Origin: Plantimonas leprariae
GTDB lineage: Bacteria > Pseudomonadota > Alphaproteobacteria > Rhizobiales > Rhizobiaceae
Length of the DNA stretch: 64,000 bases
Assembly: GCF_008802405.1 (NCBI RefSeq)
Contig: NZ_VZDO01000002.1
Location: 248,001-312,000 of the forward strand
Reading direction: 5' to 3'
In this document: in pieces, positions 13,575 to 43,855 of the stretch
Layout of the letters: the number at the start of each line of letters is the position of its first letter
Position numbering within the stretch: position 1 is the first letter of the stretch
Program-made: the position numbers and the translations under genes
Notes under the pieces: model-generated
The model's database searches: none
Told to the model about the DNA's origin: nothing
What the model saw: the letters and a program-made list of their open reading frames with translations, nothing else

Positions 13575-13726
13575 CCAGAACAAGGCGCAAAACGCGCGGC
13601 TTCAACGGTCTTGGCTTGGGAGGGCGCGGTTTCCGGCGCAGCTCACGCTGCTGCCCTGGACATTGTTCCGGTGTGAAACCCGGACCGGAAATTCACGATG
13701 CAAGGCTTCGGCCTTGCATTTTTTTT
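13575..13726 (+). ncRNA. Candidate small RNA in the proS-DUF1467 gap
   Basis: The 426-bp gap between proS and the DUF1467 gene holds no convincing ORF, but it carries a strong plus-strand terminator although both neighbours are on the minus strand. The predicted transcript is about 150 nt and can fold. CCAGAACAA (13575-13583) pairs with TTGTTCCGG (13663-13671) with one mismatch, enclosing AGGGC (13621) / GCCCT (13653) and the hairpin GCAGC-TCAC-GCTGC (13638-13651). A terminator hairpin follows. One long hairpin with an open centre resembles 6S RNA, but I see no diagnostic sequence, so the identity is open. The 5' end is a guess. Confidence 0.45.
13698..13726 (+). terminator. Intrinsic terminator, UUCG tetraloop and eight U
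   Basis: A 9-bp stem ATGCAAGGC / GCCTTGCAT closed by a C(TTCG)G tetraloop and followed by eight T (13719-13726). It is among the best intrinsic terminators in the window and functions only on the plus strand. Confidence 0.88.
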
Positions 13727-41632: not shown

Positions 41633-41716
41633 TGGTGCGGGCGGAGGGACTCGAACCCCCACGCTTTCGGCGCCAGAACCTAAATCTGGTGCGTCTACCA
41701 GTTCCGCCACGCCCGC
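41633..41716 (-). tRNA. tRNA-Leu (TAG)
   Basis: An 84-nt tRNA with a long variable arm. Acceptor GCGGGCG / CGCCCGC, anticodon stem CCAGA / TCTGG with loop TTTAGGT giving anticodon TAG, T-loop GTTCGAGTC, discriminator A and an encoded CCA. Confidence 0.96.
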
Positions 41717-42074
41717 CGAACCCTGCCGAGCGGCTGCCGGGAAGGCGCCTCCATAACACCAGTTAACGAGGGGGAAAAGAACAAAGGCCGCCGATCGGGC
41801 CTCCGGATCGGAATGCCCGCGCAAGCTCGCCGCAAGGTCGGCTTGAATGCCAAAGCCGGATCGGGCCTTCTCGATCACCGTGGCGATCACACCGCCAGCA
41901 CGCCGCCGGAACCCTCGACGAGACGTGCTGCGAAACGATTAATGCTGCGATGCACAAAGCGCATCTCAGCCATGCGCATTCCGTTCTGGTGCTCAGTGGG
42001 CGCCTCTCTTACCTTCAAGCTCAACGGAGCCGAGAGGAATAGGTCCGAGGGCTCCGGTCCGAAGGAAGAGGGCA
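41717..42074. other. 358-bp gap: leader and promoter region of the DUF1127-small RNA locus
   Basis: No supported ORF. The distal part should hold the promoter of the DUF1127 gene. An inverted repeat CGGAGCC (42025-42031) / GGCTCCG (42050-42056) lies just upstream of the ribosome-binding site; CCTCTC (42003) can alternatively pair with GAGAGG (42032-42037), so the leader may switch between two folds. I cannot fix a -35/-10 pair. Confidence 0.4.
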
Positions 42075-42218
42075 ATGAATATCGCTCGGTCGTACCAGAA
42101 CTGGCGCCGTTACCGCGAGACCTGCAACGAGCTGAATCGCCTCTCGCACCGCGAGCTGGCCGATCTCGGAATTTCGCGCTCGGACATCCCGAACGTAGCC
42201 CGGAAGGCAATCGGCTGA
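42075..42218 (+). CDS. DUF1127 small arginine-rich protein (CcaF1-like)
   Basis: A 47-residue basic protein: MNIARSYQNWRRYRETCNEL followed by NRLSHRELADLGISRSDIP, the complete DUF1127 motif (YRxTxxELxxLSxRELxDLGIxRxDI). AGGAAGAGGG precedes the ATG. DUF1127 proteins are alphaproteobacterial; in Rhodobacter sphaeroides such a protein (RSP_6037, CcaF1) binds RNA and is co-transcribed with the CcsR1-4 small RNAs. In Agrobacterium, DUF1127 proteins influence phosphate and carbon metabolism. Four hairpins follow directly here, so the same arrangement is present. RNA binding by this protein is inferred from that relative. Confidence 0.93.
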   Translation: MNIARSYQNWRRYRETCNELNRLSHRELADLGISRSDIPNVARKAIG

Positions 42219-42262
42219 CCTTGCGAGGTTGCCAACCGCTAAGCCGATGAACAGATAGAGAT

Positions 42263-42299
42263 TTCGCGCGAGCTCACCTCCTCCCAGAGCGAGCGCGAA
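42263..42299 (+). ncRNA. CcsR/cuckoo-type small RNA hairpin 1
   Basis: The stem TTCGCGC / GCGCGAA, a symmetric GA/GA internal loop, and an inner stem GCTC / GAGC present an 11-nt loop with CCTCCTCCC at 42277-42285. It begins 45 nt after the DUF1127 stop. The loop resembles the anti-Shine-Dalgarno end of 16S rRNA and can pair with GGAGG sites. Confidence 0.8.
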
Positions 42300-42301
42300 T
42301 G

Positions 42302-42333
42302 GAGCCTGCGGATCCTCCTCCCACTGCAGGTTC
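42302..42333 (+). ncRNA. CcsR/cuckoo-type small RNA hairpin 2
   Basis: An 8-bp stem GAGCCTGC / GCAGGTTC with one G-U pair and a 16-nt loop containing CCTCCTCCC at 42314-42322. It starts 3 nt after hairpin 1. Confidence 0.78.
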
Positions 42334-42336
42334 GGA

Positions 42337-42365
42337 GGCCTTCGAACCTCCTCCCATCGAAGGCC
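42337..42365 (+). ncRNA. CcsR/cuckoo-type small RNA hairpin 3
   Basis: A perfect 9-bp stem GGCCTTCGA / TCGAAGGCC with an 11-nt loop that is exactly A-CCTCCTCCC-A (motif 42347-42355). It starts 4 nt after hairpin 2. Confidence 0.82.
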
Positions 42366-42373
42366 GTCAAACG

Positions 42374-42403
42374 ACACCCGCCGGTTCCTCCCCCGGCGGG
42401 TGT
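42374..42403 (+). terminator. Fourth hairpin of the small RNA array, also the terminator
   Basis: An 11-bp stem ACACCCGCCGG / CCGGCGGGTGT with loop TTCCTCCC (CCTCCC at 42387-42392), followed by TGTCGTTTCT. It carries a shortened version of the motif in the three hairpins before it and ends the transcript 34 nt before the trmFO start. Confidence 0.75.
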
Positions 42404-42436
42404 TGTCGTTTCTGCGGACGTGCTAGACCGACGGCC

Positions 42437-43855
42437 ATGCAGAACGATCCAATTCACGTTGTCGGCGGCGGCCTGGCAGGCTGCGAAGCCGCGTGGCAGA
42501 TCGCCGAACGGGGTATCCCGGTAGTCCTCCATGAGATGCGTCCCGTGCGAGAGACGGCCGCGCACAAGAGCGGCGACCTCGCCGAACTGGTCTGCTCGAA
42601 CTCGTTCCGATCCGACGATGCCGCGACGAACGCGGTCGGGGTGCTCCACGCCGAGATGCGGCTGGCGGGCTCTCTCATCATGCGGTCGGCCGACGCGCAT
42701 CAGGTTCCGGCCGGCGGCGCGCTCGCCGTCGACCGCGAGGGCTTCGCCGCCCGCGTCACCACCGAGATCGAGCGGCATCCGCTGATCGATATCCGCCGCG
42801 AGGAAGTCTCGGGCCTGCCGCCGCGCGAGTGGGGAGCGACGGTCATCGCCACCGGTCCGCTGACCGCGCCGGCGCTCGCCGAAGCGATCCGGGCGGAGAC
42901 CGGCGCGGACGCCCTGGCCTTCTTCGATGCCATCGCGCCGATCGTGCACTTCGACACGATCGACATGGGCATCGCGTGGTTCCAGTCGCGCTACGACAAG
43001 GTCGGACCGGGCGGCAACGGCGAGGATTACGTCAACTGCCCGATGAACCGCGACGAGTACGAGCGCTTCATCGCCGAACTGCTGGCGGGCGAGAAGACGA
43101 CCTTCAAGGAATGGGAGCACGTCCCCTATTTCGACGGCTGCCTGCCGATCGAGGTCATGGCGGAGCGCGGGCCGGAAACGCTGCGGCACGGCCCGATGAA
43201 GCCGATGGGCCTGACCAACCGGCACAAGCCGGACGAGAAGGCTTACGCGATCGTGCAGCTTCGACAGGACAACGCGCTCGGCACGCTCTACAACATGGTC
43301 GGCTTCCAGACGAAGCTGAAATATGCCGAGCAGGTGCGGGTGTTCCGCACGATTCCCGGCCTGGAGAATGCCGAGTTCGCACGCCTCGGCGGGCTGCATC
43401 GCAACACCTACCTCGATTCGCCCCGGCTGCTCGACGGATCGCTGCGTCTGCGCTCGCGTCCCGACATCCGCTTTGCCGGCCAGATCACCGGCTGCGAGGG
43501 CTACGTCGAATCCGCCGCGATCGGTCTCCTCGCCGGACGCTTCGCCGCCGCCGAGGCGATGGGCGAGGCCGCGGAACCGCCGCCGGAGACCACGGCGATG
43601 GGCGCGATCCTGCGCCACATCACCGGTGGCCACCTTTCGGTCGAAGAGGAAGGCGGCAAGCGCTCGTTCCAGCCGATGAACGTCAACTTCGGCCTGTTTC
43701 CGCCGATCGAGGCGCCGCGCAGCGAGGGCAAGCGGATGCGCGGCAAGGAGAAGACGCTGGCGAAACGCCGCGCCCTGTCGGCGCGCGCCCTCGCCGATTG
43801 CGGCGCCTGGCTCGGCTTGCCGCCGGTCTCAGCGCTGCCCGCCGCCGCCGAGTGA
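42437..43855 (+). CDS. trmFO: Folate/FAD-dependent tRNA (uracil-54) methyltransferase
   Basis: A 472-residue flavoprotein that makes ribothymidine at position 54 of tRNA using methylene-tetrahydrofolate. The FAD dinucleotide motif is [15 protein letters not shown] (residues 9-23). Other family blocks are [20 protein letters not shown] (in part), the Cys in [11 protein letters not shown], and [16 protein letters not shown]. It is found in Gram-positives and alphaproteobacteria in place of TrmA. It overlaps the convergent DUF4153 gene by 27 bp at the 3' end. Confidence 0.95.

Follow-up and report, generated by a model that had tools for sequence, protein, structure and literature searches.

A cuckoo RNA family, or CIN1 locus, was reportedly described by Reinkensmeier and Giegerich in 2015. 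As defined in papers that cite it, this locus comprises adjacent hairpins that each carry CCUCCUCCC and are linked to a DUF1127 gene. The αr14/NfeR1 RNA (Smr14C2; Rfam RF02344) of Sinorhizobium meliloti likewise consists of consecutive CCUCCUCCC-loop hairpins with variable stems, is present in several copies per genome and has an LsrB-type box upstream. According to the published account of NfeR1 (PMC10746234), this RNA is activated by LsrB, and it silences mRNAs at the ribosome-binding site through three anti-Shine-Dalgarno (aSD) loops that are redundant with one another. In Rhodobacter sphaeroides, the ccaF1-CcsR1-4 cluster also begins with a DUF1127 gene, which is followed by hairpins that share the loop motif and end in a terminator-like structure; the CcsR RNAs are described as being cut from the ccaF1 3' UTR with the involvement of RNase E and CcaF1 (PMC8625941, PMC10253847). 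Going by its description, SmelA099 of S. meliloti has four hairpin loops with CCUCCUCCC-like motifs (PMC3927594). AbcR1 and AbcR2 have aSD motifs as well, and AbcR1 is under LsrB/VtlR; however, they are described as three stem-loops with two such motifs, and no DUF1127 link figures in that published description (PMC7143759).

In this study, we analyzed a locus in a window of 64 kb, by which we mean the whole stretch of DNA at its full length (bases 248001-312000 of contig 22 in a genome of 4.77 Mb in 39 contigs). The locus is a four-hairpin αr14/'cuckoo' RNA at a DUF1127 gene. Loci of this kind are already known, and the window holds a further copy that is itself ordinary. It differs from NfeR1 in having four hairpins rather than three, and in that the array lies directly 3' of a DUF1127 gene; for NfeR1, the published account gives a promoter of its own (PMC10746234). 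The difference from ccaF1-CcsR1-4 is that an LsrB-type box is present where RpoHI/RpoHII are described as driving the R. sphaeroides promoter (PMC10253847), and that a single four-hairpin unit, missed by the CcsR1 model, takes the place of four RNAs.

Layout and family assignment of the locus

The features of the locus, all on the forward strand, are as follows.

41951..41964, +: exact LsrB/VtlR-type box TGCA-N6-GCAT, TGCACAAAGCGCAT (from the consensus as published in PMC10746234 and PMC8844928, and from its recurrent position in relatives)
42010..42015, +: -10-like element TACCTT (columns +59 to +64 counted from the box start, aligned with a TA..T element conserved in relatives)
42075..42218, +: gene of a DUF1127 small protein of 47 aa (PF06568 profile match)
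42263..42299, +: hairpin 1, CCTCCTCCC in the loop, extra relative to the three-hairpin αr14 model (fold)
42302..42333, +: hairpin 2, CCTCCTCCC in the loop (fold and αr14 match)
42334..42368, +: hairpin 3, core 42337-42365, CCTCCTCCC in the loop (fold and αr14 match; co-variation seen in the penultimate hairpins of arrays in relatives)
42371..42406, +: hairpin 4, resembling a terminator, TTCCTCCC in the loop and a weak T-run after it (fold and αr14 match)
42295..42408, +: match to Rfam αr14 (RF02344), model positions 1-123 of 123 (covariance-model search)
42437..43855, +: trmFO, folate/FAD-dependent tRNA U54 methyltransferase (NF003739, 678 bits; TIGR00137, 539 bits)

A profile search assigned the 47-aa protein to DUF1127 (PF06568, 60.5 bits, cut-off 23.3), which agrees with the gene that the earlier note had placed ahead of the hairpins. 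Among the best 80 of at least 585 matches, the TrmFO protein of the window showed 81% identity (best segment) with that of Aureimonas flava and 70-79% with those of the other Hyphomicrobiales listed, and the organism was accordingly assigned to this order.

The αr14 covariance model matched hairpins 2-4 over its full length with 75.1 bits, well above the gathering cut-off of 58.8. As in αr14, CCUCCUCCC was unpaired in the loops of three hairpins with divergent stems, the last loop being shortened to TTCCTCCC, and, as in the cuckoo locus defined by the citing papers, adjacent hairpins with a loop motif lay beside a DUF1127 gene. Thus, the cuckoo-type RNA proposed in the earlier note is well founded. 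The same note had also seen a copy of the R. sphaeroides CcsR1-4 arrangement here, which did not hold: the CcsR1 model (RF02791) reached 28.8 bits against a cut-off of 65.3. That weak similarity (E 2.1e-5 in a 241-nt search), together with a gene order and loop motif like those described for ccaF1-CcsR1-4 (PMC10253847), would be expected if the locus were an RpoH-driven cluster of stress RNAs, matured by RNase E together with the DUF1127 protein and acting on C1 and pyruvate metabolism, an explanation that the missed cut-off makes unlikely and to which the promoter region also speaks (see below).

A match below threshold to 6C RNA (RF01066; 36.4 bits, cut-off 47) was seen at 42333-42411 on the + strand; the likeness to this RNA of two hairpins with C-rich loops is probably a convergent shape. 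Elsewhere in the window, positions 13575-13725 (+) matched αr9 (RF02343), an alphaproteobacterial sRNA, with 46 bits (cut-off 45).

Fold of the array and its loop motif

The minimum-energy fold of 42219-42415, from whose dot-bracket string the hairpin limits were placed, held all four hairpins (-88.7 kcal/mol, z -5.07, none of 200 shuffles as good), together with a 7-bp helix that surrounds them and a small 5' stem. The four hairpins previously proposed after the DUF1127 gene were therefore recovered, CCTCCTCCC was located at 42277, 42314 and 42347 and the loop of hairpin 4 carried CCTCCC, exactly as stated before, and the reading of these loops as aSD sequences was judged right. Only the spacing needed correction, from 2-8 nt to 0-2 nt in the fold, or 2-5 nt if hairpin 3 is reduced to its core. 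The shortened loop of hairpin 4 had counterparts in five of the six other copies in the genome (TCCTCC or TTCCTCC forms). The T-run after hairpin 4 was only 3, and a terminator scan of the window locus did not call this hairpin.

On both strands of the window, CCTCCTCCC occurred three times in all, on one strand and within 79 nt. The expectation for the whole window was 0.85, and three matches were also reached by 6 of 100 shuffles, a control that takes no account of clustering. Across the genome the motif showed no enrichment (68 matches versus 80 for the reversed control), so the signal lies in its clustering within hairpins.

The frame of trmFO can be extended in frame through the hairpins, with two loops read as Pro-Pro-Pro in an open frame of 62 codons. 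In eight of 12 relatives this extension was no longer than 16 codons; two congeners had 29-30, and L102 and L033 had 84-87. The coding reading was set aside as chance.

Arrays near trmFO in relatives

We compared 114 trmFO loci (L numbers), comprising the best 80 of at least 585 matches, 30 from a family sample of 61 genomes (the window's included) and 4 of the genus. Identical sequences were present (L018/L099 and L042/L121), and L121 was left out of the T-run test below, all other counts using the full set. In 36 of the loci (class A), a DUF1127 gene was directly followed by an array ending within 260 nt of trmFO; in 18 (class B), such a pair lay farther away within 1.6 kb. Both elements were present in another 21 loci with the array not directly 3' of the gene, five loci had an array only, and 15 had neither element within 1.6 kb, including L019, L020 and L027, in which the pair was found about 2 kb away. 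Our literature search on trmFO together with DUF1127, LsrB, NfeR1 or VtlR found no published link of DUF1127 or LsrB with trmFO.

The class A arrangement, the weak T-run and the gap of only 30 nt between hairpin 4 and the trmFO start are what one would expect of an attenuator, in which the last hairpin gates read-through from the DUF1127 promoter into trmFO. We regard this as very unlikely, as the pair is more distant in the class B loci and neither element is nearby in the 15 loci mentioned above, and as a TAGACT-like element just 5' of trmFO, in the window and in three of four congeners, suggests that this gene has its own promoter. The element is at 42424-42429 in the window and also in L159, L160 and L161, about 5-8 nt before the trmFO start; judged by sequence, it might serve as the -10 of a promoter from which trmFO would be transcribed with almost no leader.

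Array length varied considerably among relatives. The 106 hairpin clusters had between 2 and 12 detected hairpins (three in 55, two in 25, four in 6 and at least six in 20); the finder misses some, detecting 3 in L158 and 2 in L161 where folding gives 4 and 3. By folding, the genus has four hairpins in the window and L158, and three in L159, L160 and L161. Near trmFO, between 7 and 12 hairpins per array were detected in L038, L042, L092, L102 and L109, including Aurantimonas and Pleomorphomonas, and in Aurantimonas (L038) a unit of about 137 nt was repeated six times. Among the arrays with at least six hairpins, 18 of 20 could be scored for T-runs. The T-run of the last, terminator-like hairpin exceeded the mean of the internal ones in 18 of 18, and every internal one in 16 (exceptions L102 and L122), with means of 3.94 and 2.05, respectively (Wilcoxon p 9e-5, uncorrected for relatedness). 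This pattern suggests that a long array is one transcript with weakened internal terminators. More generally, the hairpins of the relatives seem to multiply in the manner of interchangeable parts and often to share a promoter signal.

Co-variation of the stems

Stem conservation was assessed in 21 penultimate hairpins of arrays near trmFO, not all of them directly 3' of a DUF1127 gene. These rows were hand-picked for equal loop geometry from 82 (one empty) that had passed a stem-score filter, and they include close relatives (L159/L160, L041/L051, L050/L068 and L019/L020); the window's own hairpin, with a loop two bases shorter, lies outside the set. The loop TCCTCCTCCC was invariant in all 21, while the ten-pair stem varied on both sides. 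Double-sided changes were found in 63 cells versus 17.7 in shuffles, and the co-variation score was 0.849 versus 0.304, a value that no shuffle out of 500 attained; the signal was lost once the partner was shifted by one to three columns. Changes on both sides were seen in all 10 pairs, a bare count matched by 42 of 500 shuffles. Paired cells amounted to 91.9% versus 64.9% in shuffles, and since the stem-score filter favors pairing, the weight rests on the co-variation counts and not on this percentage. The previous claim that the loop is kept while the stems change thus gains quantitative backing from related hairpins. In an arm-swap test of the seven arrays of the genome, own arms averaged -21.3 kcal/mol versus -13.3 for swapped arms; the own 3' arm ranked first as a partner in no more than 11 of 23 hairpins, and the co-variation count is the stronger test.

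Copies in the genome and their association with DUF1127

The genome contained seven αr14 matches at E 0.001, six of them over the cut-off. Ten DUF1127 genes were present, of which five, all of one close type, were directly followed by an array and five were not. Five of the seven αr14 matches were thus directly 3' of a DUF1127 gene, in line with the association proposed earlier. The same preference would be expected if the hairpins acted in cis, protecting or timing the decay of the DUF1127 mRNA or binding the DUF1127 protein, with no targets in trans. This is quite unlikely in our view: two arrays (C4:155053 and C3:92597) have no adjacent DUF1127 gene, an invariant aSD loop is needless for protection or for a terminator, and the loops of NfeR1 are described as required for silencing in trans (PMC10746234). 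The two matches concerned extend over C4:155053-155172 and C3:92597-92711. In the latter case the nearest DUF1127 gene is about 1.2 kb upstream, and four loop motifs follow in a row as in the window, the second hairpin folding poorly.

Across 60 genomes from genus to order, an αr14 match at E up to 0.001 was found in 43 and over the cut-off in 35; there was no match in 14 control genomes. In the genus, trmFO was found in four of the five other genomes searched, and an αr14 match lay just 5' of it in all five of the six genomes, the window's included, in which the gene was found. The earlier note had counted relatives with the DUF1127 gene but no hairpins as evidence against its reading. The four other genus genomes keep both, but at 19 of the 114 trmFO loci (class D) a DUF1127 gene has no array within 1.6 kb; because of such array-less genes, the link is not universal. 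In some Rhizobium/Sinorhizobium loci (for example, L041, L048 and L081), arrays were located 5' and not 3' of DUF1127 genes, and a second DUF1127 type (LSN.ALSDIGI) adjoined trmFO without hairpins.

Promoter box and candidate regulator

Two LsrB consensus patterns have been described: TGCA-N6-GCAT, the LsrB/VtlR motif of the NfeR1 promoter with the box at -72 (PMC10746234), and GCAT-N3-TG-N3-T, matched in PabcR1 (PMC8844928). The window has an exact match to the first about 72 nt before the presumed transcription start, which we infer to be near 42023 from the -10-like element and the NfeR1 spacing; a sigma-70 consensus search of 41700-42600 gave no match. The last four bases of the box open GCAT-N3-aG-N3-T, one mismatch from the second pattern. 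With three exact TGCA-N6-GCAT matches in the window versus 1.2 expected, the box by itself proves little.

The recurrence of the box in relatives was more informative. At the 114 loci the gene start was located by tblastn; five of them (L025, L108, L109, L111 and L116) have less than 1.45 kb upstream. The loci contained 153 DUF1127 genes upstream of trmFO, 148 of which had enough upstream sequence. In 52 of the 148, the exact box stood equally far from the coding core, versus a mean of 0.34 for 575 permuted patterns, the largest of which (28) were parts of the same element. Half-sites TGCA/GCAT recurred in the same stretch at gaps of 5 (37 genes), 11 (21 genes) and 8 (14 genes), so gaps other than exactly 6 are kept as well, and these recurring spacings speak for a composite element of repeated half-sites. 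In a first count of 54 box-bearing genes, the T, G and T of GCAT-N3-TG-N3-T outside the box were conserved at 0.83, 0.85 and 0.94, and a TA..T element was conserved 59-63 nt past the box start. At that place, 22 of 58 DUF1127 genes with an array and 45 of 95 without one carried either published pattern. Control positions gave 0 and 0 when shifted upstream by 100 nt, and 0 and 3 on the downstream side. Of the 57 loci with a DUF1127-array pair, 36 had either pattern at some DUF1127 gene. On the other hand, 36 of the 58 array-bearing genes, including those of congeners L159-L161, had no exact published pattern there (near matches by eye), and exact TGCA-N6-GCAT was absent within 300 nt upstream of the four other array-linked DUF1127 genes of the genome. 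About 30 kb downstream, a DUF1127 gene of another type (C22:320077-320184, +) had an exact box 100 nt before its start and no hairpins.

The presence of an LsrB-type box at this recurrent place, with no RpoH-type promoter evident by eye at the presumed start, argues further against the RpoH-driven cluster considered above. Since the box occupies a position that is frequent for it in relatives, RpoH-dependent induction by heat or singlet oxygen would not be our first expectation here, but it retains some probability.

The genome also has the order trxB, LysR-type gene and AbcR-like RNA candidate, and the order trxB, LysR gene and AbcR RNA is described for vtlR (PMC12595884). Of the 25 NCBIfam families listed for the LysR gene, none that names a particular regulator scored over its cut-off, so its identity as LsrB rests on gene order. 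The intergenic RNA candidate 3' of it (L169 2150-2310, +) contains CCTCCTCCC and TTCCTCCC and a strong terminator, and is possibly AbcR1. Published AbcR family models were tried at this locus and none exceeded its cut-off (best SorX, 35.4 of 46.6 bits); the label 'AbcR-like' therefore rests on position and motif.

Discussion

The most likely function of the locus, by analogy with its studied relatives, is that of a 3'-UTR-derived sRNA pairing with Shine-Dalgarno sequences and repressing mRNAs in which these are strong. We consider it probable that an LsrB/VtlR-type promoter, the DUF1127 gene and a 3' UTR αr14-family sRNA acting in trans form one transcription unit. The promoter would give one transcript through the DUF1127 gene and its 3' UTR, which would be, or be processed into, the four-hairpin RNA with its terminator-like end. 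Each exposed CCUCCUCCC loop would then pair in trans with Shine-Dalgarno regions of mRNAs and block their translation, the loops being redundant with one another, and the DUF1127 protein may, like CcaF1 in R. sphaeroides, aid processing or pairing. The fold, αr14 match and DUF1127 domain of the locus were computed here, as were the co-variation in related hairpins, the recurrence of the box at one place and the LysR gene after trxB, and it is the studied relatives that lead us to expect transcription, processing, LsrB control, target repression and a role for the protein. Counted against this reading are the weak T-run, the one mismatch to GCAT-N3-TG-N3-T and the other DUF1127 proteins described as acting via protein contacts (Agrobacterium PhoR and Salmonella YjiS; PMC12501420). 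In addition, the window copy may be silent, because only one of six copies in S. meliloti is described as reliably detected by northern blot (PMC7143759).

A target search for GGAGGAGG-N2-10-ATG gave 64 sites versus 11 for the reversed control, the excess that one would anticipate from strong Shine-Dalgarno sites. From these, 30 sites were taken, giving 29 rows, 18 of them with a frame of at least 80 aa; they formed a mixed set in which no class stood out by eye.

A broader and rather doubtful extension of this reading is that aSD hairpins are interchangeable modules, their number tuned by head-to-tail duplication after DUF1127 genes with loss of internal T-runs, yielding one long multivalent RNA, often under LsrB, and that DUF1127 is the missing partner of αr14/NfeR1. 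If this were true, loop dose would set the strength of repression across many mRNAs. The multi-unit arrays of relatives form a natural series for asking whether repression becomes stronger with loop number.

The locus is a clear example joining two systems that have been studied separately, NfeR1/LsrB in rhizobia and CcaF1/CcsR in Rhodobacter. NfeR1 is described as Hfq-independent, the account leaving open which RNA chaperone, if any, assists it (PMC10746234). With five DUF1127-αr14 pairs in one genome, DUF1127 becomes a testable candidate for the chaperone of an NfeR1-type RNA.
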